Below, piece by piece: positions 20,481 to 40,600 of a DNA stretch of 64,000 bases. The stretch covers positions 970,734 through 1,034,733 of the forward strand of contig NC_089316.1 of assembly GCF_036669915.1 (NCBI RefSeq), given 5' to 3'. Each line of letters starts with the position of its first letter. Within the stretch, counting starts at the first letter, position 1. A program made the translations under genes and the position numbers. This DNA is from Pocillopora verrucosa (lineage: Eukaryota; Cnidaria; Anthozoa; Scleractinia; Pocilloporidae). The notes under the pieces were generated by a model. It ran no database searches, had not been told where the DNA came from, and saw only the letters and a list, made by a program, of their open reading frames with translations.

Positions 20481-21059
20481 TGTGGTGCGCTGGGCCATTA
20501 CTACACGGCACGTGTTCTGAATACAGCTGAAGAAAAATAGCCAATCGGGACATATATCAGATCCATATGCGACAAGAGTTCTAAACACTTCTAGGATTTG
20601 CAAAGGATTTGATGTCGTGAAAATATAGAAAAGCAATAAGATAAGAGAAAAGGGGAAATAAAGAAAAGGAATTAATGAAGAATTGAATGAACAAATGAAT
20701 GAACGAAGAGTAATTTAAAAACTGGGAAAGGAATGAAAAAAGGGCAAATACTTTTTATGGTCTCAAATCGATTCAATAACACCAAAAAAATTCTTGATTA
20801 GGAGCTGCTTCCCTTAAACTGAGTGAAAACCGCCCGATTGATGGGTAATTCAGTTTGAAGAAAAAAGCTCTAAATAAACATGTAAAATATTCTTATTTCT
20901 CATAATAATAAATGCACACTGGCAAGAAAATAAAAGATGACCAGTCACGGCTCACGGCTCCACTATAATAGCTGAAGCCCTTTTGCGCAAAGGAGATTTT
21001 AAATAATTCCTAGATCCGTTGAGAGATTCAATTTTCCAGCCACGAAGGACTTATCAAGC

Positions 21060-21190
21060 AAGCGAACGAAAGAGGGAGCGAGCAAGAAAACGAGCGAACT
21101 AACGAACGAACGAAGAAAGAAACGAACGAGCTAACGAACGAACGAACGAACGAACAAACGAAAAGACGAACGAACGAACGAACAGTCGAA
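21060..21190. repeat. CGAA tetranucleotide microsatellite upstream of PBLD copy 1
   Basis: Interrupted (CGAA)n and (ACGA)n repeat about 100 bp before the start codon. A shorter version lies at the same place in copy 2 (about 29885-29996). The array differs in length between copies, so it has changed since the duplication. Confidence 0.85.
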
Positions 21191-21282
21191 GGACGAAAAG
21201 AGCCTATACCGGCCTCTCCCTCCTAACTCAACGTGTTGGAAAAAATGTATTCCGGGGAAGATTGGAGACGACATTATTCAAG

Positions 21283-22773
21283 ATGGCGGTCGAAGCGAGT
21301 TTTCCAATCTTTGTAGTCGATGCATTCACCGACAAACCTTTTGGCGGGAATCCAGCTGCTGTATGCCTCGTGGGATCAAGGGTAAGAAACTTTCAATAGC
21401 AACAAGCGTGAGATTGGGCTAGGAAGACGATTGTGTGACAATATCATTAAATTCGCCTTGAATCAGGTCACTTGAACTTGCCTCTTTCAATACGGAAAAA
21501 TAAAAGTGAATTCACCGGGTTGTATTTACGTTTTGCCTCTATTCTTTTCCCCCTGAAAACTGGGACCTGAAAAGCATTTTGCTTCGAAACTTTTGGGAAG
21601 GGATTTGCACCAAAACTGACTCGTTTCCCACCCTCAGAATTTAAGGATGACAGGAAGTTGGTTGGGGGTTGTTCAATTCAAACAGCAAACGTATTATGCC
21701 TTAAAAGAAAAACTTTCCTATTATTTTCTTTTACCTAAAATTTATCATGTGGCTTGAGAATTGAGAGGATTGATGGGGGTCTTAAATTTAGAGTGTGCTG
21801 GTGTAAAATTGACCGCATATGTACACTGTATCTCTTAATTCCAATTACATTACTACAAAGTGACACTTAATTAACCCCTTCACTGCCTACATGACATACT
21901 CAGTACATCGAAAGTTATGACAGTAACAGTCAAATCTCCAGCATTGGAAATGTAAAATAATCTGGCCTCCAAAGCTCAAAACTAGTTAAAAACTCTTGTA
22001 GCGCTTGTAGCGACCAAAACAAATATAGTTTATAAGATCCCAAGGGGTGTCACTCCAAGACGCGATTAACAAGGTGTTTAGGAGCTATTTTTACAGATCG
22101 AGATTGAAGAATAACAGACCGAAGTTGACCGTTCACACAAATCTTCAATCCTGCAAGCAATCGACCACAAACCACAATCAACGATCAATCTCACAATCAA
22201 TCAGTCAATTGTAAACTGCAACAATAATACAACGAAGTTCTATCAATCTATTGAAATGTTGCGAAATACATAATCAAAAATAGCGTGTAAAAAACTGGGC
22301 CTTTATGCTGATAACAAGATTATAATGACAATGAACAATACAAATACCCCAATAAATCAGAACAAACTATGTCAAAGGACAAAAATTTCGGTACAAATTA
22401 TTAAGAATTTTGGTGGCTGGTTAACAGCCCATTGTTCTTATATGTAAATGGTGGGCTTTCACTTGCATCTGATACAATTTTGGCCTTTAAATCTCAAATC
22501 AATTGAAAATATGGCAATACAACAAAATATCTGTTTGTATACTTTTGCCCAATGCTGGAAAACTAAACTTAGAAGAACAAAGTTACAAAAGTACTTACAT
22601 ATTGGTCTCGCTTATGCCAAAGGTTTAAGAAACAAAAGGACGAGAGTTTACCAAGGCTACTCAAAAACTTACAAAGAACTGATTACAGGGACACTAAACT
22701 CGCTTTTATATGTGTGTGGTGACCTTGGAAGGTCCGATTACAAAACCAATAGAAATATATATACCTATATATA

Positions 22774-22817
<44 letters not shown>

Positions 22818-25800
22818 ATTTCATAACAATAGAAATATAGACCAACAGATAAACAATGCAACTATGTTGGTATCTAGGATCATTCTGCTATTATTGAACT
22901 AATCAATAATCAATTTAATAAAAATGAGCTTCTGGCTAGTGTCCTTAACATTTCTAAAAAACAATAAGTCAATTTGCATTGGCACAGGACTTTTTGGTGA
23001 TGGCAGTCAAGGGGTTATGGAATTTTTCTCAATTAAAAAAAGATATGTACTCACATTTAATTGTGGGAAATTGTAGCAAATGCTGTTGGAAAGTGCTCAA
23101 CACACGAGTGTAGAGCGAAATACAGTTCAAAATGACTAAAATGAAATTCCCTGTAACTCTGAGTTTCATGCTTACGCACTCGTCAGTGTCTGTCTGATGA
23201 GTGCGTAAGCACGAAACTCAGAGTTACAGGGAATCATGCGTGTTTCATTGTAGTCATTTTGAACTGTGCTCATATTTAAAATTGTTTTATTTATGGAATC
23301 TATGCAAGTGAGGTTGTTCTCTTTTGAAATTTCAAGTGCACCATTATCTTCTTCCACTGGTGTAATTTGCAAATTGATGTGTACCAGTAATTTTTATTGA
23401 ATTAATTTGTTCTAACAAGCAGCAATTAGTGATGACATCTTGCAAAAAGTTGCAAAAGAAATTAACTTATTGGAAACAGCCTTTATCCTGGAAAAAAATG
23501 AACCTGACACATATTCAAAAGGTTAGGTTCACCAAACCCAACTGAGTTTTACTTAAGCTTAGATTCCATCTGCTTTTGTCTTAAATTTAGGAATTAAGTG
23601 ACAACACCATGCAAAGGATAGCAAATGAAATGAATTTGTCTGAAACTGCTTTTATCCTCCAAAAAACTGAGCAAGACACATACTCGAAAGGTTAGGAATA
23701 ATCACAGCAAATAGCATCCATTTAACTAAGTTAGTCCTTCTTCTTGATCCCTTTGACCCTACAATGGACCTTCATCTAATTTCTTCTTATGTCACCTCTG
23801 AATCACACCTTGAGGTCACAAGAATAAAGGAAATGATCAACTACAGAGGCTCTTGATAGTCAGGCAAATTCTCCTCATCAGCACCTGAGGAAATGTAGGA
23901 AGAACAGTATGGAGAATATGCATATTGATGTTAGGGTGTGAACAGTTATTGTCCTGGACACATGTGATGACTTATTTTATCCTCTTGTTAAATATCCAAA
24001 ACGTGTGCATTACCTTAAGTTAGTTTTCCTCTGTTCTTTTACGTCATTACTATATCTGTTCATAGTAAGCATTTTCATGTATTGGACATAACTGAACGTA
24101 GAAACATTGTTTGAAAATCTACCTTTATGGCTGAAAATTACAACATATTTTGAGAGCAAACTGATTCTGGTGAAACACGAATTAATCTTAGTGTAAGTTT
24201 TGTATGACCTGAACTTTTTCACCTCTCTGCCTATGTTGTATACTGAATTCTAATTTTATATATTGTAGGTTCCTGTTTTGGTCTTCGTTGGTTTACCCCA
24301 GCATGTGAAGTGCCTTTATGTGGACATGCAACTTTAGCCTCAGCAGCTGTTTTGTTTAACTCCATAGGTGAGGTGTAACTCTCAGAAGTGATTAACAAGT
24401 AACTTCTCCCTACAATACCCATGCACTATCCAGCAAACAGGTAATCAGAATACTTAAATCTATCAGGTAGAAGTTGTTATCATGATCTAACACCAAATCC
24501 TCATAACTTATTTACAAGGAACTGTGTAGTAGCTAAAGGGGAGAATTAACAATCAGATCTTAGGAGTTAAAGGGTTAAGAAAGTTGTGGTTTTAATAAAA
24601 GCTTGTTACTGGCCATCTACCATCCTCTTTGGACCTCTTATCCCCTGGGTAGCCTGTGAGCTGGGGTACCTGTGGGCTTTCACACTTGTAAGTGAGTTAT
24701 AAGCTGGCAGGGAGTCTCAAAACAACAACCTCACTCTCAGGGTCTTAGTTCTACCCTTCCTTTACCAAAGGAAGGAAATAAAGAGAGACCTGGGAATGAG
24801 GTTGTTGAAACAAGAGCCTCCCAACTTGTCATTTATTTTCAAATTTCCTATGTTTATCCACAAACACAGCATTCTGACTAGTCAAGAATAACAGGCAAAT
24901 AACAGGTGTCATTACAGCACTCTTTTTATTTGCCCTAAAAATAAAAGCTGAAAATTACATTTCGAGGCTTCCATAATTTTATTATTAGTTTCAGCTTGGT
25001 AATTTGTTAATATGTAATCATGAAATCATTGAACATACCCTTACTAGGTAATGCAAATGCTGAAGTAACATTCGAAACATTAAGTGGGAAATTAACGGCA
25101 AGACAGGAAGGTAGGAGTCCTATTTGATGTAAAAGGCTAACTAAAAGTGCACAGTTAGATACTTTGGTTTTCTTAAAGAAGTTCAAACTTGATGATATAA
25201 ATTGTCCACCGTAGAGAGTTTGTAAAGCTGACATTCCAAGCACTAGCCCCTTGTCAAAGCAAATGTCTACAGTAATTTTCTGGTCCATCAAAATAATACT
25301 AGAAAGTTGCATTGGGTAATACTAGTGGTATTTATTATTTGCAAGATCTTAAAATGAAATTGACAAGTCGAATCTAATTGTGCTCTTAATGAATTTGGGC
25401 AAGAATGTTGCAGCTGGCAATCATATTTTAATTTCCTTTTTTCTTTTTCTGTTACAGGTTCATCAATTTGTTTAAACTTCCCTTTGAACAGCTGTGAACC
25501 ATTACCTAAAGTATGTGTTAATTTCATTGTGTTTATGTACAGCATAGGGTACCAAATTCACATCTGGCCTTGAATGTTAAAAATTAACATTATCTTAAAT
25601 TTTGTTTATTTGCCACTAATATGAAAAGTGGGATACTCTGTCTGGGAATTTTTTCATGAAAATTCAAGTTAGAAAATTCCTACCAACCAATATTGTCTAT
25701 AATTGGGTATAGCATAATATTTATGATTATTGTAGCAGCTGTTTTGTGGGAGAATCAAAACTTGTTCAACTAGTTTGTTCAAAGCATGTTCTCACCTTAA

Positions 25801-27440
25801 AATCAATCGCTTACATTTCATTTATGTCAGGAAGAAGCAATGAAGAGATTAGTTAAAGCAGGTAAACAACTTTTTCTTCAACAATTTTTACAAGAGACAG
25901 GGAGAAGCCCATTTTGGTCTGGGTGTTATACCTCTAAAAGTTAAGTCTTGGAAACTGCTGGTTCTGAAGCATCAAGTGACTCAAATACTACCACTCCATC
26001 TGGATGGAACACCATCACATCCCATGTTACCTCCAACCCCACCCACCCCCCCCCCCCCATTTCTTGTATTTCAACCGGTTTTCCTGACATTTTCCAAAAC
26101 TCCATTTTCACTCCATGGCCCAGAGGCCTGGTGAGAGTGAAGGGCCTTAGAAATTTCAACCCTTCAAAATAACGAAGTCAGAAAGGGAGGTGTCTGGAAC
26201 AGCAAAGCCGTGACCACAAGTAATCTACGGTCTCTCAATCTAACAAGCCTATCATTCATTCTGTTCACTGTAGGAAGGAAATAGGTCAAATAAGCAAAAT
26301 TTACTTAACTAAAAATACTTATTAGAAGATAAATCAGTAACTGAAAATTGTTATCAGTTGTAGGTGACCTAAAGGTAAAAGACGTAGAATACTCCAAGAC
26401 AACCAAGAAACTTCTCTTGTGTTTGGAGCCTTCATTGACAAGGTCAGGTCATGGAATAAGAATTAAAAAGAACATAAAATTACTTACATAAAATTAGGAA
26501 GTGTGGGCTAAGGGGCAAACCTCGTTACACAATTCGACTACACGTTTGTCTTATTGAGGCTACACTCAGTCATTGAATAGCATTGTATTTCTGATAAATC
26601 TTTAACTTTTGCTCACAGAGAAGATTTGGAAAACCTCTCCCCAGACTTCCAGGCTATGTTGTCCGCCCCCTTGTCTGGACTTGTCCGTGGTGTGATTGTA
26701 ACCCTGCAGGGGACTAAGGCAAATGGGTGTGTGGATGGTAGCGGTGAGGTGTATGACTTTGTTTCACGTTACTTTGCTCCTTGGGTTGGAATATCTGAGG
26801 ACCCAGTAACTGGTGAGTTTTAAAATAGCTTTTAAGGTAGTTCTATTCATTAATGTTAGTTTCCTTTTTTAACATTACAATCTTTCTTTTAGGCTCGGCA
26901 CATACAGTTCTTGCTAGTTATTGGTCACAAAGACTGAAAAAAAACGATTTGTATGGTGAGTTCCATAATTCCATGTAAGGTTGTTTGAAATGTGCTGTCT
27001 GAATTTTGGAGTTAGTGACATTTGCCCGAGTTTTTAGTATACCCATTCCAAACAAAACAAAAAACAGCAAAGCTTGCCTTTTATTTGGCCTTACAAGGGT
27101 ATATTTCCTGATTAGAGGGGTCAGTTTGTTGTGTAGTTTGATCCAACCCAGATGATTACAAAATTGGTGTCTTGAATCGTCGCTCTTTGAGTTTATCTTT
27201 AAAGGCTGTGTTAAGCTTGATCAACCATCCATATTGTGTTTAACTTGAAATGTCTCCCTGTCACGTTCATATCAATGTTTGGGGAAGTTTAATCTGACTT
27301 TTCTATCATATCATTTTCTTTTTTTAGCTCGTCAGTGTTCATCGCGTGGTGGAGAACTGAGAATTGATGTCAGGGAAAACAACAGAGTTGACATTGCTGG
27401 ACAAGCAGTCTTAGTTCTTCAAGGAAGCATACGCTTATGA
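21283..27440 (+). CDS. PBLD: PhzF-family isomerase-like protein, copy 1 (PBLD homologue)
   Basis: Ten coding exons join in phase to 297 aa: 21283-21381, 23591-23690, 24269-24367, 25048-25110, 25458-25510, 25831-25861, 26364-26442, 26619-26812, 26893-26955, 27328-27440. The protein matches the phenazine-biosynthesis-like family along its length, close to the ~288 aa of vertebrate PBLD. Family signatures: N-terminal [16 protein letters not shown] (13-28), NLSETAF (Glu51), [11 protein letters not shown] (His86), FAPWVG, and EDPVTGSAH (Asp236, Ser241). By alignment with bacterial PhzF these match catalytic Glu45, His74, Asp208 and Ser213, so this copy looks competent for isomerase-type chemistry. 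The animal substrate is unknown. All introns are GT-AG. It is convergent with SPAG1 exons downstream. AATAAA at 27623-27628 is a likely poly(A) signal. Confidence 0.93.
22782..22815. repeat. (TA)n microsatellite in PBLD intron 1, copy 1
   Basis: A continuous TA tract. The same tract in copy 2 (31578-31594 and 31821-31832) is split by the foldback element, so this copy shows the empty site. Confidence 0.9.
23123..23266. mobile_element. Palindromic foldback MITE, copy 1
   Basis: A near-perfect inverted repeat: CAGTTCAAAATGACTA... through GAGTGCGTAAGCACGAAACTC to ...TAGTCATTTTGAACTG, with a ~7-nt centre. The left arm lacks an 8-bp CACGCATG segment that is still present in the right arm and in copy 2. 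No coding capacity. Confidence 0.75.
23423..23521 (+). other. Duplicated PBLD exon 2 ('exon 2a'), probable decaying or cassette exon
   Basis: It is homologous to the true exon 2 at 23591-23690, 70 bp downstream. In its ancestral frame it encodes [14 protein letters not shown] followed by NLLETAF, with the catalytic Glu. The nearest acceptors (AAG|CAG| tandem, NAGNAG) cannot join that frame to exon 1, which ends in phase 0. With the CAG acceptor it is 99 nt, stop-free, and frame-preserving as an extra cassette, but read in a different frame (starting QLVMTSC). The donor is AAAAG|GTTAGG. Confidence 0.6.
23748..23944. mobile_element. TIR element, family C, in PBLD intron 2
   Basis: ~200-bp element with CCCTTTGACCCTAC at one end and GTTAGGGTGTGAACAG at the other. 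The interior is shared with 32772-32970, 52926-53126 and 53802-54009 (GAATAAAGGAAATGATCA, ATTCTCCT, ACAGTATGGAGAATATG). No coding capacity. Confidence 0.7.
24374..24577. mobile_element. TIR element, family B, next to PBLD exon 3 donor
   Basis: It shares its interior with 53259-53466 and 55041-55250 (AGAAGTGATTAACA, CCAGCAAACAGGT, AACTTATTTACAAGGAA) and ends GGGAGTTAAAGGGTT-like. It starts only about 6 nt into intron 3, so it abuts the 5' splice site of exon 3. The same insertion is in copy 2, so it predates the duplication. Confidence 0.7.
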
Positions 27441-28318
27441 CAGGTGTCATGCAACCCCAACCTTTTCGATAAATAACATAGCAAAGCAAAAGAATTGCAG
27501 TTACAGAGAACACTCGCAATATGACATACACCAATACAGAAATATTCAACCTTGTATTACAAGGACAAAACCAGGATTGTATAGTTAAGGAACACATTTC
27601 TACTTTAAGTTTTGTTTCATCAAATAAAATTCACATTACATCCTATAACTAGAGATCTTCAAGAGAATACATTCACTACAACCTTCCCACACCCTAGGTG
27701 TTGTTTCTCAGGGAAACACTTTCTGTAAACATAATTTCTTCAAAAGTTAAAACTTGTATTGTCATAGAAGTTTCTGAAACATGCACTTGTTAAGCATAAG
27801 TAATACCTTTCATTTAACCAGCAAACAGTCTTTCAGCCATAAATGATACGCTAGAGATTATCTGAGGTACCGTCAATGCCCAAACAAATGCATAAGACAA
27901 CTATGACACACAAACTTCCTTAAAAAAGATTTTCAACATCTTTTTAAATTTATTTCTTATTTAGAGAAACGTGGTCAGATAATAGTTAATTATTACCAAG
28001 AAAGAGAAGAGATTTAGTTTGTTGTTTCAGTTAGTCATGCTGGAAGTTAGAGATTGCTGAGAAAGACCTTATCAGTGTTTGTCCCCAAAGGTGAAAGATA
28101 CCATTGTCAGAAAGGTATATTATTTTCACTTGGCATTGCCTTGTTGCTCTCTTTTCCTTAAGATGGACCTCCCTCCCCCCCCCCCCCACCCCCTCCCTTT
28201 CAAACGTGTAGTGCTTTCAGCTTTAAGAAGATTTAAGTGGAGCAAGGAACTAAGAAGACTCATAACATTGTCAAACGTCTAACACATAACTTGTCCTACA
28301 GTAAAGTGAACTAGATTC

Positions 28319-28794
28319 CTAATTCCAGTACTTCTTTTGTAGCTGTTCAAATTCATCACTTGTGACAAACTTTTTCTGGTCCCTCGCAACTTGAAGCTTG
28401 GAGAAAAGCTGTTGAAGTTCTAATAACAGAAATGAGTTGTTAAATTGATGTAACTGGCCCAAAGGAACAATTTGTTGAGACAACAACAACAAATGAAATT
28501 TAAAACCGAGTTTCTCACCTTTCTTTTCTTTAGACGACATAAATAACAACACCATATCGAATCGTTCAACATGACTAAGCTCTCCCAGAATGTGGCAAGC
28601 AAGTTTTTCTTCTCCTGTTACAATAACAAAGTGATCATAGGATAAGATTATGACTCCACTCCGACTAAGGTTTCAATCCTCAATTGTTCTTGAATTAAAA
28701 AGCTAAAGTTTGTCTTTACCTTGTGGAACAACTTCCTGGCTGAGGGCTGCTATAATGCTACTTAACATTGGAGCAACAAGTTTATTACTGAGAA
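28319..28794 (-). pseudogene. SPAG1: SPAG1 3'-end fragment (three orphan exons), copy 1
   Basis: Three exons corresponding to the last three of SPAG1: 28720-28794, 28519-28614 and 28319-28419, with intact splice sites and an open frame to the stop (ending QLQKKYWN; the intact gene ends QLQKKYMN). They encode most of an RPAP3_C-type domain, including LSHVERFDMVLLFMSSKEKK and the helical ELQQLF tail. The upstream exons are missing: exons 20 and 21 fall in the 668-bp deletion, and nothing further upstream was duplicated. There is no start codon context or promoter, so it is a dead fragment unless spliced onto another transcript. It is convergent with PBLD copy 1. Confidence 0.88.
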
Positions 28795-30083
28795 CTGACC
28801 AAAACAAAAAAAAACGTGCAACGTCAGTAAATGACCTTCTTTGAGGACTCCTTTAAACTTTGCCTCTTGCTTTGTAATTTATATTCCCATTTTCCCTTAT
28901 TCTCTTTTCTGTCCCTTTCTTAATATCCTTCTATCCTTCCCTTTCCCACATGACCTATCTCTCCCTATCAACCCCCCTTTAAATTCATTCCCTTTCTCTT
29001 CCCATTTTTTCTTTCTCGATCTGTATTCCACTTTCCTTTCATCCGTTATCGATTAACGGTTCTTATTCTTCCTTCATGTGAGCTTTTTCTGAACCCTCCT
29101 TCCTCTCTCTTACATATCCACTTCTATTTCCCATTTCTTTTTCTCCTTGTTATTCTCTAATTCTCCTTTTTTCATCCTCCATTCCCACTTCCCTTGTTTG
29201 TCTTTTAATCCCATTCTTTCCCTTGTCACTCCTCTCTCCTGGGAGACAAAAGATAGCATCAGTCATAGAAGAGGACGGGAAAGCAGCACACTCCATTATC
29301 ATGAAGTAATACGCAAGGGTGAAGTATGACTTCAATGCACCAGAGGCTTATACGGCGGGAAGTGAACTCTGAAATCACAATCCTTATTGGATAGCGTGCT
29401 GAAGACCTGACACAGACAGGAGAAGGGAGATGTACCATCGTTGTACCATCCTCGGACACCCAGGGATAAGAGAAAAGGGGAAATATAAAAAAGGAATTAA
29501 TGAAGAATTCAATGAACAAATGAATGAACGAAGAATAATTTAAAAACTGGGAAAAGAATGAAAAAAAGGCAAATAACTTTTATGGTCTCAAATCGATTCA
29601 ATAACACACAAAAAAATTTCTGATTAGGGGCTACTTTCCTTAAACTGAGGGAAAACCACCCGATTGATAGGTAATTCAGTTTGAAGAAAAAAGCTCTAAA
29701 TAAACATGTAAACTTTTCTTATTTCTCATAATAATAAATGCACACTGGCAAGAAAGTAAAGATGACCAGTCACAGCTCATGGTTCTATTATAATAGCTGA
29801 AGCCCTTTTGCGCAAAGGAGATTTTAAATAATTCCTAGATCCGTTGGGAGATTCAATTTTCCAGCCACGAAGGACTTATCAAGCAAGCGAACGAAAGAGG
29901 GAGCGAGCGAGAAAACGAGCGAACTAACGAACGAACGAAGAAAGAAACGAACGAACGAACAAACGAAGAGACGAACGAACGAACGATCGAGGGACGAAAA
30001 GAGCCTATACCGGCCTCTCCCTCCTAACACAACGTGTTGGGAAAAATGTACTCCGGGGAAGATTGGAGACGACATTATTCAAG

Positions 30084-33000
30084 ATGGCGGTCGAAGCGAG
30101 TTTTCCAATCTTTGTCGTCGATGCATTCACCGACAAACCTTTTGGCGGGAATCCAGCTGCTGTATGTCTCGTGGGATCAAGGGTAAGAAACTTTCAATAG
30201 CAACAAGCGTGAGATTGGGCTAGGAAGACGATTGTGTGACAATATCATTAAATTCGCCTTGAATCAGGTCACTTGAACTTGCCTCTTTCAATACGGAAAA
30301 ATAAAAGTGAAGTCACCGGGTTGTATTTACGTTTCGCCTCTATTCTTTTCCCCCTGAAAACTGGGACCTGAAAAGCATTTTGCTTCGAAACTTTTGAGGA
30401 GGGATTTGTACCAAAACTAACTCGTTTCCCACCCTCAGAATTTAAGGATGACAGGAAGTTGGTTGGGGGTTGTTCAATTCAAACAGCAAACGTATTATGC
30501 CTTAAAAAGAAAAACTTTCCTATTATTTTCTTTTACCTAAAATTTATCATGTGGCTTGAGAATTGAAAGGATTAATGGGGGTCTTAAATTTAGAGTGTGC
30601 TGGTGTAAAATTGTTTGCATATGTACACTGTATCTCTTAATTCCAATTACATTACTACAAAGTGACACTTAATTAACCCCTTCACTGCCTACATGACATA
30701 CTCAGTACATCGAAAGTTATGACAGTAACAGTCAAATCTCCAGCATTGGAAATGTAAAATAATCTGGCCTCCAAAGCTCAAAACTAGTTAAAAACTCTTG
30801 TAGCGCTTGTAGCGACCAAAACAAATATAGTTTATAAGATCCCAAGGGGTGTCACTCCAAGACGCGATTAACAAGGTGTTTAGGGGCTATTTTTACAGAT
30901 CGAGATTGAAGAATAACAGACCGAAGTTGACCATTCACACAAATCTTTAATCCTGCAAGCAATCGACCACAAACCACAATCAACGATCAATCTCACAATC
31001 AATCAGTCAATTGTAAACTGCAACAATAATACAACGAAGTTCTATCAATCTAATGAAATGTTGGGAAATACATAATCAAAAATAGCGTGTAAAAAACTGG
31101 GCCTTAATGCCAATAACAAGATTATAATGACAATGAACAATACAAATACCCTGATAAATCAGAACAAACTATGTCAAAGGACAAAAGTTTCGGTACAAAT
31201 TATTAAGAATTTTGGTGGCTGGTTAACAGCCTATTGTTCTTATATGTAAATGGTGGGCTTTCACTTGCATCTGATACAATTTTGGCCTTTAAATCTCAAA
31301 TCAATTGAAAATATGGCAATACAACAAAATATCTGTTTGTATACTTTTGCCCAATGCTGGAAAACTAAACTTAGAAGAACAAAGTTACAAAGGTACTTAC
31401 ATATTGGTATCGCTTGTGCCAAAGGTTTAAGAAACAAAAGGACGGAAGTTTATCAAGGCTACTCAAAAACTTACAAAGAACTGATTACAGGGACACTAAA
31501 CTCGCTTTTATATGTGTGTGGTGACCTTGGAAGGTCCGATTACAAAACCAATAGAAATATATATACCTATATATAATACATATATATATATATATAGGAA
31601 GTCTGCAAATCGATTTTCGCGTGGAACAGTGCTCAATACGTTGAAGCAGAGCAGAATAAATATTATGATAGGAAAAAAGGATGCAACTACATTTCCCGAC
31701 AAGCTGTTTCGTGAATCGCTTCACTCTTCAGGGGTTTAATGATTAAACCCCTGAAGAGTGAAGCAATTCACGAAACAGGCTTGTCGGGAAATGTAGTTGC
31801 GTCCTTTTTTCCTATCATAATATATATATATCTATTTCATAACAATAGAAATATAGACCAACAGATAAACAATGCAACTATGTTGTTATCTAGGATCATT
31901 CTGCTATTATTAAACTAATCAATGATCAATTTAATAAAAATGAGCTTCTGGCTAGTGTCCTTAACATTTCTAAAAAACAATAAGTCAATTTGCATTGGCA
32001 CAGGACTTTTTAGTGATGGCAGTCAAGGGGTTATGGAATTTTTCTCAATTAAAAAAAGATATGTACTCACATTTAATTGTGGGAAATTGTAGCAAATGCT
32101 GTTGGAAAGTGCTCAACACACGAGTGTAGAGCGAAATACAGTTCAAAATGACTAAAATGAAACACGCATGATTCCCTGTAACTCTGAGTTTCATGCTTAC
32201 ACACTTGTCAGTGTCTTCTGACAAGTGCGTAAGCACGAAAATCAGAGTTACAGGGAATCATGCGTGTTTCATTGTAGTCATTTTGAACTGTACTCATATT
32301 TAAAATTGTTTTATTTATGGAATCTATGCAAGTAAGGTTGTTCTATTTTGAAATTTCAAGTGCACCATTATCTTCTTCCACTGGTGTAATTTGCAAGTTG
32401 ATGTGTACCAGTAATTTTTATTGAATTAATTTGTTCTTACAAGCAGCAATTAGTGATGACATCTTGCAAAAAGTTGCAAAAGAAATTAACTTATTGGAAA
32501 CAGCCTTTATCCTGGAAAAAAATGAACCTGACACATATTCAAAAGGCTAGGTTCACCAAACCCAACTGAGTTTTACTTAAGCTTAGACTCCATCTGCTTT
32601 TGTCTTAAATTTAGGAATTAAGTGACAACACCATGCAAAGGATAGCAAATGAAATTAATTTGTCTGACACTGCTTTTATCCTCCAAAAAACTGAGCAAGA
32701 CACATACTCAAAAGGTTAGGAATAATCACAGCAAATAGCACCCATTTAAGTAAGTTAGTCCTTCTTCTTGATCCCTTTGACCCTACAAGGGACCTTCATC
32801 TAATTTCTCCTTACATCACCTCTGAATCACACCTTGAGGTCACAAGAATAAAGGAAATGATCACCAACTACAGAAGCTCTTGATTGTCAGGCAAATTCTC
32901 CTCATCAGCACCTGAGGAAATGTAGGAAGAACAGTATGGAGAATGGGCATATTGATGTTAGGGTGTGAACAGTTATTGTCCTGGAGGCATGTGATGACTT

Positions 33001-36000
33001 ATTTTATCCCCTTATTGAATATCCAAACGTGTGCATTACCTTAAGTAAGTTTTCCTCTGTTCTTTTACCTCATTACTATATCTGTTCATAGTAAGCATTT
33101 TCATGTATTGGACATAACTGAACGTAGAAACATTGTTCGAAAATCTACCTTTATGGCTGAAAATTACAACATATTATTTTGAGAGCAAACTGAATCTGGT
33201 GAAACACGAATTAATCTTAGTGTAAGTTTTGTATGACCTGAGCTTTTTCACCTCTCTGCCTATGTTGTATACTGAATTCTAATTTTATCTATTGCAGGTT
33301 CCTGTTTTGGTCTTCGTTGGTTTACCCCAGCATGTGAAGTGCCTTTATGTGGACATGCAACTTTAGCCTCAGCAGCTGTTTTGTTTGACTCCATAGGTAA
33401 GGTGTAACTCTCAGAAGTGATTAACAAGTAACTTCTCCCTACAATACCCATGCACTATCCAGCAAACAGGTAATGAGAATACTTAAATCTATCAGGTAGA
33501 AGTTGTTATCATGATCTAACACCAAATCCTCATAACTTATTTACAAGGAAATGTGTAGTAGCTAAAGGGGAGAATTGACAATCAGATCTTGGGAGTTAAA
33601 GGGTTAAGAAAGTTGTGGTTTTAATAAAAGCTTGTTACTGGCCATCTACCACCCTCTTTGGACCTGTTATCCCCTGGCTAGCCTGTGAGCTGGGGTACCT
33701 GTGGGCTTTCACACTTGTAAGTGAGTTATAAGCTGGCAGGGAGTCTCAAAACAACAACCTCACTCTCAGGGTCTTAGTTCTACCCTTCCTTTACCAAAGG
33801 AAGGAAATAAAGAGAGACCTGGGAATGAGATTGTTGAAACAAGAGCCTCCCAACTTGTCATTTATTTTCAAATTTCCTATGTTTATCCACAAACACAGCA
33901 TTCTGACCAGTCAAGAATAACAGACAAATTACAGGTGTAATTAAAAATTATTATAAACAGCACTCTTTTTATTTGCCCTAAAAATAAAAGCTAAAAATTA
34001 CATTTTGAAGCTTCCATAATTTTATTATTAGTTTCAGCTTGGTGAGCATACCCCAGATCTCCCCCTCCCCACCCCCCCATGGAAGAGGCCAACCCTTTTC
34101 CACAGTAAACTAGTTATAACAACATTGATAGCTGCCTATGTCAAATGTTACTTAACCTTCTGTCTACTTTTATAACTTAAAAATGCAAATATCAGGGGTA
34201 CCATTCCCTTGTCTGAATTGTTTGAGCCTTTGCAACAGCTTTTGCTACTGAATCAATCCAGTATATAGTAACCTTACCCCCCCCCCCCCCGAATATATCA
34301 TTAATGCATTCTCCGTTTTCCCAAGTCTTTCCAATCCTTCTATTTTAACTATTGTAAGAAATTTGCAATTTGTTAATATGTAATCATTGAACATACCCTT
34401 ACTAGGTAATGCAAATGCTGAAGTAACATTTGAAACATTAAGTGGAAAGTTAATGGCAAGACAAGAAGGTGGGAATCTGATTTGATGTAAAAGGCTAACT
34501 AAAAGCGCACAGTTAGATACTTTGGTTTTCTTAACCAAGTTCAAACTTGAGAATGTAAATTTTCCACTATAGAGAGTTTGTAAAGCTGACATTTCAAGCA
34601 CTCATCCCTTGTCAACGAAAATGTCTACGGTAATTTTCTGGTCAATTAAAATTATAATACTAGAAAGTTGCATTGGTGAATACTAGTGGTATTTATTATT
34701 TGCAAGATCTTAAAATGAAATTGACAAGTCGAGTCTAATTGTGCTCTCAATGAATTTGGGCAAGAATGTTGCAGCCAGCAGTCATATTTTGATTTCCTTT
34801 TTTCTTTCTGTTACAGGTTCATTAATTTGTTTAAACTTCCCTTTGAACAGCTGTGAACCATTACCTAAAGTATGTGTTAATTTCATTGTGTTTATGTACA
34901 GCATAGGGTACCAAATTTACATCTAGCCTTGAATGTTAAAAATTAACATTATCTTAAATTTCGTTCATTTGCCACTAATATGAAAAGTGGGATACGCTGT
35001 CTGAGAATTTTTTCATGAAACTTTAAGTTAAAAATTCCCTACCAACCAATATTGTCTATAATTGTGGGTATAGCATAATATTTATGATTATTGTAGCAGC
35101 TGTTTTGTGGGAGAATCAAAACTTGTTCAACAAGTAAGTTCAAAGCATGTTCTTGCCTTAAAATCAATTTCTCACATTTCATTTCTGTCAGGAAGAAGCA
35201 ATGAAGAGATTAATTAAAGCAGGTAAACAACTTTTTCTTCAACAATTTTTACAAGAGACAGGAAGAAGCCCATTTTGGTCTGGGTGTTATACCACTAAAA
35301 GTTAAGTCTTGGAAACTGCTGGTTCTGAAGCATCAAGTGACTCAAATACTACTACTCCATCTGGATGAAACACCATTGCATCCCATGTTACCCTCAACCA
35401 CCCCCCCCCCTCCCCATTTCTTGTATTTCAACAAGTTTTCCTGACATTTACCAAAACTCCATTTTTATTCCATGGCCCAGAGGCCTGGTGAGAGGGAAGG
35501 GTCTTGGAAATTTCCAGCCTTTAAAATAACAAAGTCAGAAAGGGAGGTGTCTGGAAGAGCAAAGTTGTGACCACAAGTAGTCTACTGTCTCTCACTCTAA
35601 CAAGCCTATTATTCATTCTGTTCACTGTAGGAAGGAAATAGGTCAAATAACAATGTTTACTTATCCAAAAATACTTATTAGAAGATAAATCAGTAACTGA
35701 AAATTGTTATCAGTTGTAGGCGACCTTAGGGTGAAAGACGTTGAATACTCTAAGACAACCAAGAATCTTCTCTTGTGTTTGGAGCCTTCATTGACAAGGT
35801 CAGGTCATGGAATAAGAATTAAAAAGAACATAAAATTACTCTTACATAAAATTAGGAAGTGTGGGCTAAGGGGCAAACCTTGTTACACAATTTGACTACA
35901 AGTTTGTCCTATTGATGCTCACTCAGTCATTGAATAGCATTGTATTTCTGATAAATCTTTAACTTTTGCTCACAGAGAAGATCTGGAAAACCTCTCCCCA

Positions 36001-36804
36001 GACTTCCAGGCTATGTTGTCTGCCCCCTTGACTGAACTTGTCTGTGGTGTGATTGTAACCCTGCAGGGGACTAAGGTGAATGGGTGTGTGAATGGTAGCG
36101 GTGAGGTGTATGACTTTGTTTCACGTTACTTTGCTCCTTGGGTTGGAGTATCTGAGGACCCAGTAACTGGTGAGTTTTAAAATAGCTTTTAAGGTAGTTC
36201 TATTCATTAATGTTAGTTTCCTTTTTTAACATTACAATCTTTCGTTTAGGCTCGGCACATACAGTCCTTGCTAGTTATTGGTCACAAAGACTGAAAAAGA
36301 ACGATTTCTATGGTGAGTTCCATAATTCCTAGTAAGGTTGTTTGAAATGTGCTGTCTGAATTTTGGAGTTAGTGACATTTGCCCGAGTTTTTAGTATACC
36401 CATTCCAAACAAAACAAAAAACAGCAAAGCTTGCCTTTTATTTGGCCTTACAAGGGTATATTTCCTGTTTAGAGGGGTCAGTTTGTTGTGTAGTTTGATC
36501 CAACCAAGAAAAAGGATGATTACAAAATTGGTGTCTTGAATCGTCGCTCTTTGAGTTTATCTTTAAAGGCTGTGTTAGGCTTGATCAACCATCCATATTG
36601 TGTTTAACTTGAAATGTCTCCCTGTCACGTTTATATCAGTGTTTGGGGAAGTTTAATCTGACTTTTCTAACATATCATTTTCTTTTTTTAGCTCGTCAGT
36701 GTTCATCGCGTGGTGGAGAACTGAGAATTGATGTCAGGGAAGACAACAGAGTTGACATTGCTGGACAAGCAGTCTTAGTTCTTCAAGGAAGCTTACGCTT
36801 ATGA
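30084..36804 (+). CDS. PBLD: PhzF-family protein, copy 2, with Glu-to-Asp change at the catalytic position
   Basis: Same ten-exon structure as copy 1, also 297 aa: 30084-30182, 32615-32714, 33298-33396, 34406-34468, 34817-34869, 35192-35222, 35720-35798, 35976-36169, 36250-36312, 36692-36804. No frameshift or stop. About 17 residues differ from copy 1. The key one is Asp51 (NLSDTAF, codon GAC) where copy 1 and the family have Glu (GAA); His86, Asp236 and Ser241 are kept. Other changes include Arg-to-Cys and Gly-to-Glu within exon 8. The ~600 bp upstream was duplicated too, so it may be transcribed. The AATAAA seen 3' of copy 1 is AAGAAA here. It may be altered, weakened or drifting; a real gene by structure. 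Confidence 0.9.
31695..31734 (-). ncRNA. Hammerhead-ribozyme-like motif (left arm)
   Basis: On the minus strand: CCC (stem I), CTGAAGA, stem II GTGAA-GCGA-TTCAC with a GNRA loop, GAAA, stem III ACA-GCT-TGT, cleavage triplet GTC, GGG (stem I). All invariant core bases (CUGANGA, GAAA, UH) are present. Stems I and III are only 3 bp, the minimal form reported for retroelement hammerheads. Self-cleavage has not been tested. Confidence 0.5.
31748..31788 (+). ncRNA. Hammerhead-ribozyme-like motif (right arm)
   Basis: Plus-strand mirror of the left-arm motif: CCC, CTGAAGA, stem II GTGAA-GCAA-TTCAC (GNRA loop), GAAA, stem III ACA-GGCT-TGT, GTC, GGG. It differs from the other arm by a loop substitution and one extra base in the stem III loop, so both cores have been preserved despite divergence. 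Confidence 0.5.
32139..32290. mobile_element. Palindromic foldback MITE, copy 2
   Basis: Counterpart of 23123-23266, here with both arms full length (CACGCATG present in both). Arms begin CAGTTCAAAATGACTA and end TAGTCATTTTGAACTG. Confidence 0.75.
32447..32545 (+). other. Duplicated PBLD exon 2 in copy 2, donor changed GT to GC
   Basis: Equivalent of 23423-23521 with the same NAGNAG acceptor, but the donor reads AAAAG|GCTAGG instead of GTTAGG. A GC donor with an otherwise weak context suggests the exon is not used in this copy. Confidence 0.55.
32772..32970. mobile_element. TIR element, family C, in PBLD copy 2
   Basis: Duplicate of the 23748-23944 element, with a few substitutions (GGAGAATGGGC for GGAGAATATGC). 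Confidence 0.7.
33403..33606. mobile_element. TIR element, family B, in PBLD copy 2
   Basis: Duplicate of the element at 24374-24577, again directly downstream of the exon 3 donor (here GTAAGG). Confidence 0.7.
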
Positions 36805-37676
36805 CAGGTGTCATGCAACCCCAACCTTTCTGATAAATAGCATGGCAAACCAAAATTGCGGTTACAGAGAACACTCGCAATATGACATACACCAGTAAAG
36901 AAATATTAAACTTTGTATTACAAGGACAAAAGCAGGATTGTGTAGTTAAGGAAAACATTTCTACATTAAGTCTTGTTTCATCAAAGAAAATTCACATTAC
37001 AGCATATAACTAAAGATCTTCAAGAGAAAACACGCACTACAACCTTCCCACACCATATGTGATGTTTCTCAGGGAAACACTTTCTGTAAACATAATTTCT
37101 TCAAAAGTTAAAACTTGTATTGTCATAGAAGTTTCTGAAACATGCACTTGTTAAGCATAATTAATACCTTTCATTTAACCAGCAAACAGTCTTTCAGCCA
37201 TGAATAAAACGCTAGAGATTATCTAAGGTACCGTCAGTGCCCAAAACAAATGCATGAGACAACTATGACACACAAACTTCCTTAAAACAAAGATTTTCAA
37301 CATCTTTTTAAATTTATTTATTATTTAGAGAAACGTGGTCAGATAATAGATAATTATAACCAAGAAAGAGAAGAGATTTAGTTTGTTGTTTCAGTTAGTC
37401 ATGCTGGACGTTAGAGATTGCTGAGAAAGACCTTATCAGTATTTTTCCCCAAAGGTGAAAGATACCATTGTCAGAAAGGTATATTATTTTCACTTGACAT
37501 TGCCTTGTTGCTCTCTTTTCCTTAAGATGGAACCCCCCCAACCCCACCCCTTCCCTTTCAACATTGTAGTGCTTTCAGCTTTAAGAAGATTTAAGTGGAG
37601 CAAGGAACTAAGAAGGCTCATAACATTGTCAAACGGCTAACACATAACTTGTCCTACAGTAAAGTGAACTAGGTTC

Positions 37677-40600
37677 CTAATTCATGTACTTCTTTTGTAG
37701 CTGTTCAAATTCATCACTTGTGACAAACTTCTTCTGGTCCCTCACAACTTGAAGGTTGGAGAAAAGCTGTTGAAGTTCTAATAACAGAAATGAGTTGATA
37801 AATTGCTGTAACTGGCCCAAAGAAACAATTTTTTGAGACAATAACAACAAAATGAAGTTTAAAACCAAGTTTCTCACCTTTCTTTTCTTTAGACGACATA
37901 AATAACAACACCATATCGAATCGTTCAACATGACTAAGCTCTCCCAGAATGTGGCAAGCAAGTTTTTCTTCTCCTGTTACAATAACAAAGTGATCATAGG
38001 ATAAGATTATGACTCCACTCCGACTAAGGTTTCAATCCTCAATTGTTCTTGAATTAAAAAGCTAAAGTTTGTCTTTACCTTGTGGAACAATTTCCTGGCT
38101 GAGGGCTGCTATAATGCTACTTAACATTGGAGCATCAAGTTTATTACTGAGAACTGACCCAAAAAAAAACATACAATGTCAGTACACGACCTTCTTTGAG
38201 GACTCCTCTAAACTTTGCCCCTTACTTGGTAATTTATATTCCCATTTTCCCTTATTCTCTTTTGTGTCCCTTTCTTAATATCCTTCTATCCTCCCCTTTC
38301 CCACATGACCTATCACTCCCTATCGACCCCCCTTTAAATTCATTCCCGTTCTCTTCCCATTTTTTCTTTCTCGATCTGTATCCCACTTTCCTCTCATCCG
38401 TTATCGATTAACGGTTCTTATTCTTCCTTCATGTGAGCTTTTCTGAACCCTCCTTCCTCTCTCTCACATATCCACTTCTATTTCCCATTTCTTTTTCTTC
38501 TTGTTATTCTCTAATTCTCCTTTTTTCATCCTCCATTCCCTCTTCCCTTGTTTGTCTTTTAATCCCATTCTTTCCCCTATCACTCCTCTCTCCTGTCCCT
38601 TCCTTTCACACACAGCATAACAAGTATCTCTACGGACTTTGTACCTTTGGTGAGGCGTTTCGTCTCTAGCTGCCTCAGTAAATCCGCATAATCTTTAGTA
38701 TCATTTTTTTTCACCGAGTTCCACGCTTGAAAGAAATCATACGGCGTTTTCTAATGAAAAACAACCATGTTTAAACTTAAGTGATGTAACGCCATGACGT
38801 TGATGAAAGTGATAAGACTTCAATTGTTATAGAAGCTACGTCAAGGATCACGATTTTCTCCCGAAAATGAGGATGAAAATTCAAAATCGAATGAAATCTC
38901 ACAGTGATTGATACAACTCTCGTTGTTTCAGAAGCTTCATCAAGGGCCACTAATTTTTTTGCGAAGATATCGTAGGATCCGCAAAATTCAAAATCGATTA
39001 AAACGTTGAAGTGATCGTCAATCACCAAGGAAGGAATTGTGAAACAAAAAGGATCAGAGATGGAGGATGGAGAAGAAGCAAACGAAGTGAAAATGACGAT
39101 GAAAACAGTATCACTGCTCATTAAAGATGTCAACCTTTGCAAGCTTGACTGGCCTTCCAGTTGTGGTCCCTTCCATTGGGTTAATTGGCGCTTTATCTGA
39201 AAGCTTGTTAGCTGTAGAAGGAGACGGCTGTTTCGGCGAGGGGACTGGCCCTTCGTCTTCCTGGGAGACAAAAGATAGCATCAGTCATAGTAGAGGACGG
39301 GAAGGCAGCACATACGTGATACGCAAGGGTCAAGTATGACTTCAATACACCAGAGGCTTATACGGCGGGAAGTGAACTCTGAAATCACAATCCTTATTGG
39401 ATAGCGTGCTGAAGATCTGACACAAACAAGAGAAGGGAAATGTGGTTCCTTTAGCGTTCTCTCGTTGTACCATCCTCGAACACCCATACGTTGTTGGGGT
39501 GCGAGGAAAAAAAACCGTCGTATTACTCAAACTTGTTTACGCGTTAGTCGTTTTTGGGCTTGACAATATTCAGGTAAAATCTCGTTGTTCTCATCGCTCA
39601 AAAGGAGATTCCATAACCAGTTAAAAGGAACTCAGTCCAGATAAAAACAGAGTCCAGAAAAGACACATTTTTTTGGTGTTTTGTGAGGGTGGGGAGGGGG
39701 GTTTACTCGACCTACCTCGTGGTCTCTATCTTGTACATCCCTTATTGTTACTCTTTTCCATTTTGTTTTCGTCTCTTCGTGACTAATTTTCGGTGCCTGT
39801 TGTTCGGCTTTCTTTTCCTCTTTTCTTTCTTTAAGTTTTTCATTTTTGTCGTGTGATGACCTGCGTTCCTGCCAAAAGTGAACATGATCACAGTTTGAGT
39901 TTCTTTTTTTTTAACTATGAAAGAAAAAACTTGAAATACGTTAACGCAAGTACAAAGCGTTCATTTGGTATCTTATTGCAGGTGGGCAATATCCCAGCAC
40001 AGTCAGTCTTTACTAATGAAAACAGTCTTGTTGGAATACCTTACGGCACATCTCGAGAACAATTTTTAATTCTTTCTTGGCGGCAGCATTTTTCGGTTCA
40101 ATCTTCTGGAGGGATAACAAGTCTCTTGCAGCTGAATCATACTGCCCTAACGCCTGTCAAATACCAACAGAGCAACAATTGTCATGACTACAGACTGTTA
40201 CGAACACTAACAGTTGGTTGAAAAAAATATTCAGCACTTAATATGTGGTACACAGTAACTAACACATTGAAATCGATACAACTTGAAGCACGATGAGCAA
40301 CTTCTTCCAACTACTGTATACGGTTTGAACTAGGGCGTGTAGTCTGATTGTTTGTACAAGAGTAGTCCAGGAAAGGATTACTATGGGGGGTGGTGACCGA
40401 TGTGTTCACAAACCGACCAGAAGTAACCATAAAGAAGAAGTCTAATGCGATTTTTTGTCGGTTGAGTGTTATCCGGTTAGTGGAAAGTGATTAGTCAGTT
40501 TGCTGTTATTTACCAGCTGTAAGCCTCACGAAGCGTGAGTCAGTGGGAACCTTCTTTCCCGCTATTTCGAGTGTTAAGTTTTTTAAAAGGAAAAAAAAGG

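Follow-up and report, generated by a model that had tools for sequence, protein, structure and literature searches.

A one-tailed foldback of two hammerhead-bearing terminal repeats in Pocillopora verrucosa, most likely a two-sided insertion of a Penelope-like element

The window analysed here, a 64-kb stretch of the Pocillopora verrucosa genome, contains a foldback at 31597-31827 which, judged from its sequence and that of its relatives, is most likely an insertion of a Penelope-like element (PLE) without an open reading frame (ORF), consisting of two copies of the element's terminal repeat (pLTR) with one minimal hammerhead each, placed head to head in a TA tract. What the present analysis adds to the known anatomy of such elements is a regularity: two-sided insertions in this genome nearly always take one start site of each kind, leaving a short tail on one outer end. 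We consider it probable that the two arms of such an insertion are two cDNAs, one for each target strand of a single break, begun at different start sites.

Read on the minus strand, the insert runs from the complement of the right arm through the apex into the left arm with one hammerhead, and then into the tail. Arm alignment places the left arm, a pLTR copy in sense on the minus strand, at 31656-31740 and the right arm, a pLTR copy on the plus strand, at 31742-31827, with a 1-nt apex (31741) joining them. The arms are 96-97% complementary, with 3 mismatches and 1 gap over 86 columns. The tail of about 59 nt (31597-31655, minus strand) lies between the two start sites, A and B, and holds the hairpin motif GCTCT..TTGAGCAC on the minus strand (31629-31652); its boundaries recur in other copies. 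Only the left arm carries it. The outer end of the untailed right arm (site B) merges with the TA repeats, within which a target-site duplication is unreadable here. No ORF was found inside the insert, whose content is the two pLTR copies and the tail, and the insertion is a truncated product rather than an autonomous element. The first-pass annotation of this DNA had described a foldback with two head-to-head hammerhead-like motifs, which is confirmed with one motif per arm on opposite strands; the arms are real, though the left end lies further out than was noted, at 31597, owing to the tail. It had also placed the differences between the arms in loops. This is correct for the two inside the motif (a mismatch in loop II, GCGA against GCAA, and the gap in loop III) and incorrect for the other two mismatches, one outside the ribozyme and one at the outer end. 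An origin as a MITE or DNA-transposon foldback was rejected on the unlike outer ends, with a tail on one side.

The pattern CTGANGA..CGAAA..GTC, which we take to be that of the hammerhead core, occurs exactly twice in the 64-kb window, once per arm and on opposite strands, while shuffled controls gave a mean of 0.06 matches and two matches in 0 of 100 shuffles. A descriptor search recovered both full motifs, at 31695-31734 (minus strand, left arm) and 31748-31788 (plus strand, right arm), as minimal type I hammerheads with stems I/II/III of 3/5/3 bp, in agreement with the earlier claim of two hammerhead-like motifs with stems of these lengths. Its other matches in the window were 23189-23230, in a second foldback described below, and 39406-39491, which has loops of 15 and 42 nt and was taken as chance. 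Covariance models, proposed earlier as a check, gave no match with the Rfam hammerhead families: nothing in the window scored as high as the gathering threshold of any Rfam family, and over 31300-32100 no hammerhead family appeared at E<=10. Forms with a minimal stem III may fall outside the Rfam hammerhead models. A microRNA precursor was rejected, the Rfam matches all being below gathering scores, such as long hairpins attract. When the minus-strand RNA of 31597-31835 was folded (this strand only), the prediction was one long hairpin of -145.3 kcal/mol, compared with a shuffled mean of -46.5, in which each ribozyme pairs with its own complement and both are buried. On this minus-strand fold, the idea that transcription from either strand would give a working ribozyme is unsupported.

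The genome searched comprises 353 Mb in 52 contigs. BLAST with 31597-31835 returned at least 89 matches (40 of 269 candidates scored), and in 30 loci (L029-L058) at least 234 of the 239 query bases were matched at 90-100% identity; 29 of these loci were analysed, L041 being left out as it is without the exact tail pattern. The arm core is present at 214 places (reversed control, 0) and the tail pattern at 509 (reversed control, 141). Four main tail versions, T1-T4, were distinguished, the first foldback carrying T1. Its arms represent the terminal repeat of an element present in many copies, some of which run on into open frames. These coding copies extend upstream of the same pLTR, and the longest frame read, of 438 aa, holds YRDD and a YIG-containing segment. 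We take YRDD and GIY-YIG-like motifs to be those of PLEs. No match to a reverse transcriptase or GIY-YIG endonuclease was found for the frames in Pfam, NCBIfam, PHROGs or the PDB, the Pfam result being nothing or one unrelated weak match. Judged by these motifs and a shared anatomy, the element looks like a PLE, and the proposed link of genomic copies to Penelope-like elements is positive as far as testable, the pLTR adjoining PLE-like frames. The locus L155 (147-2078) holds a probable head-to-head pair in which both arms are coding, with frames of 258 and 438 aa.

Ranking by the whole query might bias the BLAST loci towards one arrangement, and the insertions were therefore resampled by the arm core only, giving 98 arms from the first 100 of the 214 places (2 of these 100 were left out). 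Outer ends of these arms fall at two sites: 45 end at position 115 with a tail and 51 at positions 51-57 without one, the two exceptions being L120 (47) and L142 (masked stretch). Grouping yielded 66 insertions, of which 42 are pairs, 3 have a truncated partner and 21 are single arms. Among the 42 head-to-head pairs, counted with mutated partners allowed and with both arms inside one examined locus stretch, 41 have one tail, one has none (L120) and none has two. If tails were chosen independently, about half of the pairs would be expected to be one-tailed, and the probability of at least 41 of 42 is about 1e-11 with the loci taken as independent. One tail is also seen in 3/3 of the insertions whose partner is cut in or just past the tail. 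For the 33 pairs with exact cores, including one whose 2.3 kb between cores lay outside the examined DNA, the tail is single in 32 and missing in 1, and it stands on the left in 15 and on the right in 17. The single-arm insertions, 21 of 66 within the examined stretch, comprise 12 tailed and 9 untailed cases (one masked); some of them may have distant partners, but L125 and L128 appear to be simple one-sided copies without a tail.

The other tail versions behave alike. At the 52 tail places of T2-T4, a criterion that would miss two-tailed cases recognised 24 foldbacks, of which 23 have a right arm without a tail; two groups of three share flanks when compared by eye, leaving about 19 independent foldbacks. 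L061 was dropped from the T3 set as an N-masked artefact. Foldbacks were called at 43 of 84 tail places. A check of the scores by eye for cases that the criterion would miss found only L106 (T3, uncalled) to start inside the tail, its right arm stopping some 8 nt into the hairpin there. L106 together with the tailless L120 indicates that site B is not absolute. In L084 both arms measure only about 10-15 nt, and one tail, an opposite site-B end and a 12-bp target repeat (by eye) are present all the same.

The 41 one-tail pairs (L120 left out) were compared for the lengths of their arms. The difference exceeds 5 nt in favour of the tailed arm in 8 and of the untailed arm in 9, and in 24 the two are equal. 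In L144 the untailed arm extends upstream of the pLTR start by at least 683 nt, where similarity to the reference ends, and the tailed arm by 124; in L092 the untailed arm reaches 34 nt and the tailed arm 128 nt. Since either arm can be the longer one, neither is as a rule copied from its partner, which points to two cDNAs that stopped independently. Both 5' ends lie within 3 nt of the pLTR start (ATTAAA) in 23 of the 41 pairs, suggesting that the RNA template probably often has its 5' end there. At the apex, 19 pairs show an overlap of 1-14 nt, one is blunt and 21 carry filler (the longest is partly reference end), a pattern that fits the joining of two 3' ends, which the near-palindromic ATTAAA would favour. 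Filler built of repeated ACATTAAA-, TAATAAT- or TTCAT-like units occurs at the apex in L148 and L129 and past the pLTR start in L080, which looks like stuttering of the enzyme at the 5' end of the RNA; a common ancestry of PLE reverse transcriptases and telomerase is noted in the rotifer study (PMC3846280). Over the 29 loci, arms differ by 0.029 within and 0.049 between loci, and none of 10,000 re-pairings was as low. The two templates thus probably came from one source locus or one RNA, on this sequence comparison, although later gene conversion between the arms would give the same likeness within a locus.

These features can be arranged into a course of insertion. An endonuclease would make a staggered cut in both strands of an AT-rich target, as the by-eye 12-bp duplication at the second foldback suggests. 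Both exposed 3' ends would then prime reverse transcription on the element RNA, one at site A on the 3' side of the tail hairpin and the other at site B, immediately on its 5' side. This step is supported by the two outer ends with a single tail per pair in 41 of 42, the ends being read as start sites on account of published work on another PLE. Each cDNA would proceed towards the RNA 5' end and stop independently, most often, as the observed arm ends show, at ATTAAA, where the pLTR begins. Their 3' ends, carrying the near-palindrome TTTAAT, would finally be joined through the short overlaps or filler observed at the joints. That both ends are made in one event is inferred.

The most serious competitor is self-priming, in which a cDNA or antisense template snaps back on the palindrome at its 5' end and is copied into the second arm, as proposed in 2013 for rotifer PLEs in the section compared here (PMC3846280). 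The palindromic joints would suit it, and so would the near-identity of the arms, complete in 12 of 29 loci. However, it expects one arm to be contained in the other, and among the 41 pairs the longer arm is the untailed one nearly as often as the tailed one (9 and 8). A copy of a tailed arm should moreover carry the tail or stop at random, whereas the untailed arms end at one place. The arm lengths favour two cDNAs over self-priming, which we regard as unlikely. Slightly less likely again is a non-autonomous foldback mobilised in one piece, apex included. The 29 analysed BLAST loci are closely alike in build and sequence, and several share the same apex, leaving room for occasional copying of a unit; yet apex and arm lengths vary widely from locus to locus (filler to 57 nt or more, overlaps to 14), and coding copies have the identical two outer ends.

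Two further explanations appear very improbable to us. A ribozyme pair kept by selection, freeing RNA or a duplex from either strand, would explain why both cores are complete despite the differences between the arms. The predicted hairpin (-145 kcal/mol) buries both ribozymes, though, the second foldback has the same build with decayed cores in copy 2 of a tandem duplication, and a hammerhead comes with every pLTR copy regardless. Two separate insertions side by side in one TA tract are hardly to be expected either. TA tracts can hold several insertions, as L039, L087 and L145 do, but in the pairs the arms meet either directly or across a short filler, all in a single orientation and with one tail in 41 of 42, and TA repeats at the apex are not the rule. 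We retain two cDNAs with different start sites as the preferred reading.

Hammerheads are found in the foldback because each arm copies a pLTR carrying one, as every pLTR copy does, and would be mere passengers of the pLTR there. From T1-T4 to the canonical hammerhead repeat described below, the core is kept and the changes in stems I and II compensate each other, with 6 of 9 stem pairs changed on both sides among nine sequences of five families; these nine were chosen by a descriptor that demands pairing, so that their 100% pairing is given by construction. Genome-wide, a loose hammerhead pattern has 977 matches against 427 in the control, about twice as many. Hammerhead-cleaved RNA as the template found no support, only one of 32 tailed T1 arms (L014) ending at the cleavage site, while 17 of them have their ends at positions 114-119, about where the pLTR starts. 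The single arm at the cleavage site agrees with cleavage being dispensable for in vitro insertion by the Poseidon protein of Anolis carolinensis (PAc), which needs none according to the excerpted account (PMC11167929).

The tail, the inverted pLTRs, the hammerheads and the two start sites have all been published before. The PLEs of Adineta vaga, as described in part of the 2013 report, have head-to-head pLTRs with an optional tail on one of them, and self-priming was favoured there (PMC3846280). In contrast to those, no ORF lies between the pLTRs here, the copies are numerous enough for the one-tail count (41/42), and the unequal arms oppose the self-priming proposed in that work (PMC3846280). 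PAc cleaves and extends both target strands; two neighbouring internal sites serve as starts of its reverse transcription and delimit the sequence termed the 'tail', and in vitro the strands were not seen to differ in start site (PMC11167929, in excerpt). Our element resembles PAc in the hammerhead of its pLTR region, in the two start sites that bound the tail and in the AT-rich targets, and differs in that head-to-head insertions use one start site of each kind (PMC11167929). PAc starts within the first part of its ORF, as far as excerpted (PMC11167929), whereas the start here is situated past the pLTR hammerhead, in sequence without demonstrated coding. More than 6000 type I hammerhead motifs, 1508 of them canonical, have been counted in Acropora millepora, and the minimal type I hammerheads of coral PLEs are of the same PLE kind as those found here; a foldback arrangement is not described in the sections on coral PLE hammerheads with which we compared it (PMC7229834). 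Nor did the literature searched contain the rule of one start site of each kind for two-sided insertions, of which an earlier description is possible.

On the origin of head-to-head PLE copies, in the sections of the two reports considered, the 2013 study offered self-priming (PMC3846280) and the 2024 biochemistry went as far as two start sites and two extended strands (PMC11167929). The single tail per pair, together with the unequal arm lengths, connects both published start sites with the two strands of one event, and a genome with many ORF-less copies makes this origin countable.

TA tracts of the same kind in this genome also house a 243-bp repeat with a canonical type I hammerhead, and its motif suggests the name retrozyme for it. 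Animal retrozymes are, in the part of the report at hand, canonical type I hammerhead repeats of 220-240 bp that are arranged in tandem and form circular RNA (PMC7229834). The foldback itself does not fit that description, its arms being inverted and of the minimal PLE kind, with no tandem canonical repeats (PMC7229834). The retrozyme end reads GCAGTTAG followed by TTATATA in 21 of 25 rows (overlapping loci counted), and in the tandem copy L164 (317-559) that end directly precedes GCTCT..TTGAGCAC, the PLE-tail module. Retrozyme repeats carrying a module of this kind were seen in L164, L166 and L004/L009, with ends read in L162-L166; the module lies near a retrozyme in 12 of 25 rows, some of these from a neighbouring PLE. 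It arose in 23 of 200,000 shuffles of the retrozyme monomer, the motif having been picked after it was seen. In L009, beyond a tail at 300, the sequence passes from a truncated PLE pLTR directly to a retrozyme facing the same way, which is what template jumping from one RNA to another would produce. In the inverted retrozyme pairs of L162 and L163, which are near-identical loci, TA repeats stand between the arms and no tail is present, so that the one-tail pattern is not followed.

PLEs have been suggested to mobilise retrozymes in the part of the literature compared (PMC7229834), and the module and ends of the repeat suggest mobilisation by the PLE enzyme; if true, the module would give a sequence-level reason for that proposal (PMC7229834). 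It is tempting to extend this tentatively, at a little below even confidence, to an obligately asymmetric PLE integration, in which a paired enzyme would sit on one RNA hairpin (GCUCU..UUGAGCACU), its subunits would each extend one target strand, starting on opposite sides of this hairpin, and exactly one tail would result per two-sided insertion. The retrozyme has a module like this one (TA-rich site, GCTCT..TTGAGCAC), and its 3' ends lie at what corresponds to site B, so that the PLE enzyme would copy it as well.

The window also carries a tandem duplication of about 9 kb across 20928-38500, diverged by roughly 2.4-4.9% depending on the segment (45/1895, 58/2226 and 204/4162 aligned columns differ). 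The first foldback had been annotated as an insertion into a TA tract of one duplicate only, and the matching tract of copy 1 (22776-22815) is indeed empty. The insertion likely postdates the duplication, as was also claimed, on the strength of this empty tract; however, the duplicates are about as diverged as the two arms of the first foldback, and these values are too close for a proof. A loss between two TA tracts is a possible alternative for the empty tract in copy 1.

The second foldback, absent from the first-pass annotation, has the same build and lies about 0.5 kb from the first (apex to apex). It is present in both duplicates and is therefore older than the duplication. In copy 2 it comprises a tail (32075-32136, minus strand; hairpin motif 32109-32132) and two inverted pLTR copies of another PLE family with a T4-like tail (32137-32292), whose cores are decayed (CTGACAA). 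A probable 12-bp target duplication was recognised by eye, its left repeat at 32063-32074 and its right repeat at 32290-32301, the latter with 1 mismatch and with first bases that possibly belong to the arm. Probable target repeats of 12-15 bp, again by eye, are found in L019, L084 and L104. In copy 1 the second insertion spans 23059-23267, with the tail from 23059 and the arms at about 23122-23267, and one hammerhead is complete (23189-23230, plus strand; CTGATGA, stems of 5/4/3 bp). A 203-nt repeat is shared by both duplicates (24376-24578 and 33405-33607) and recurs outside them at 55048-55250 with 83% identity.
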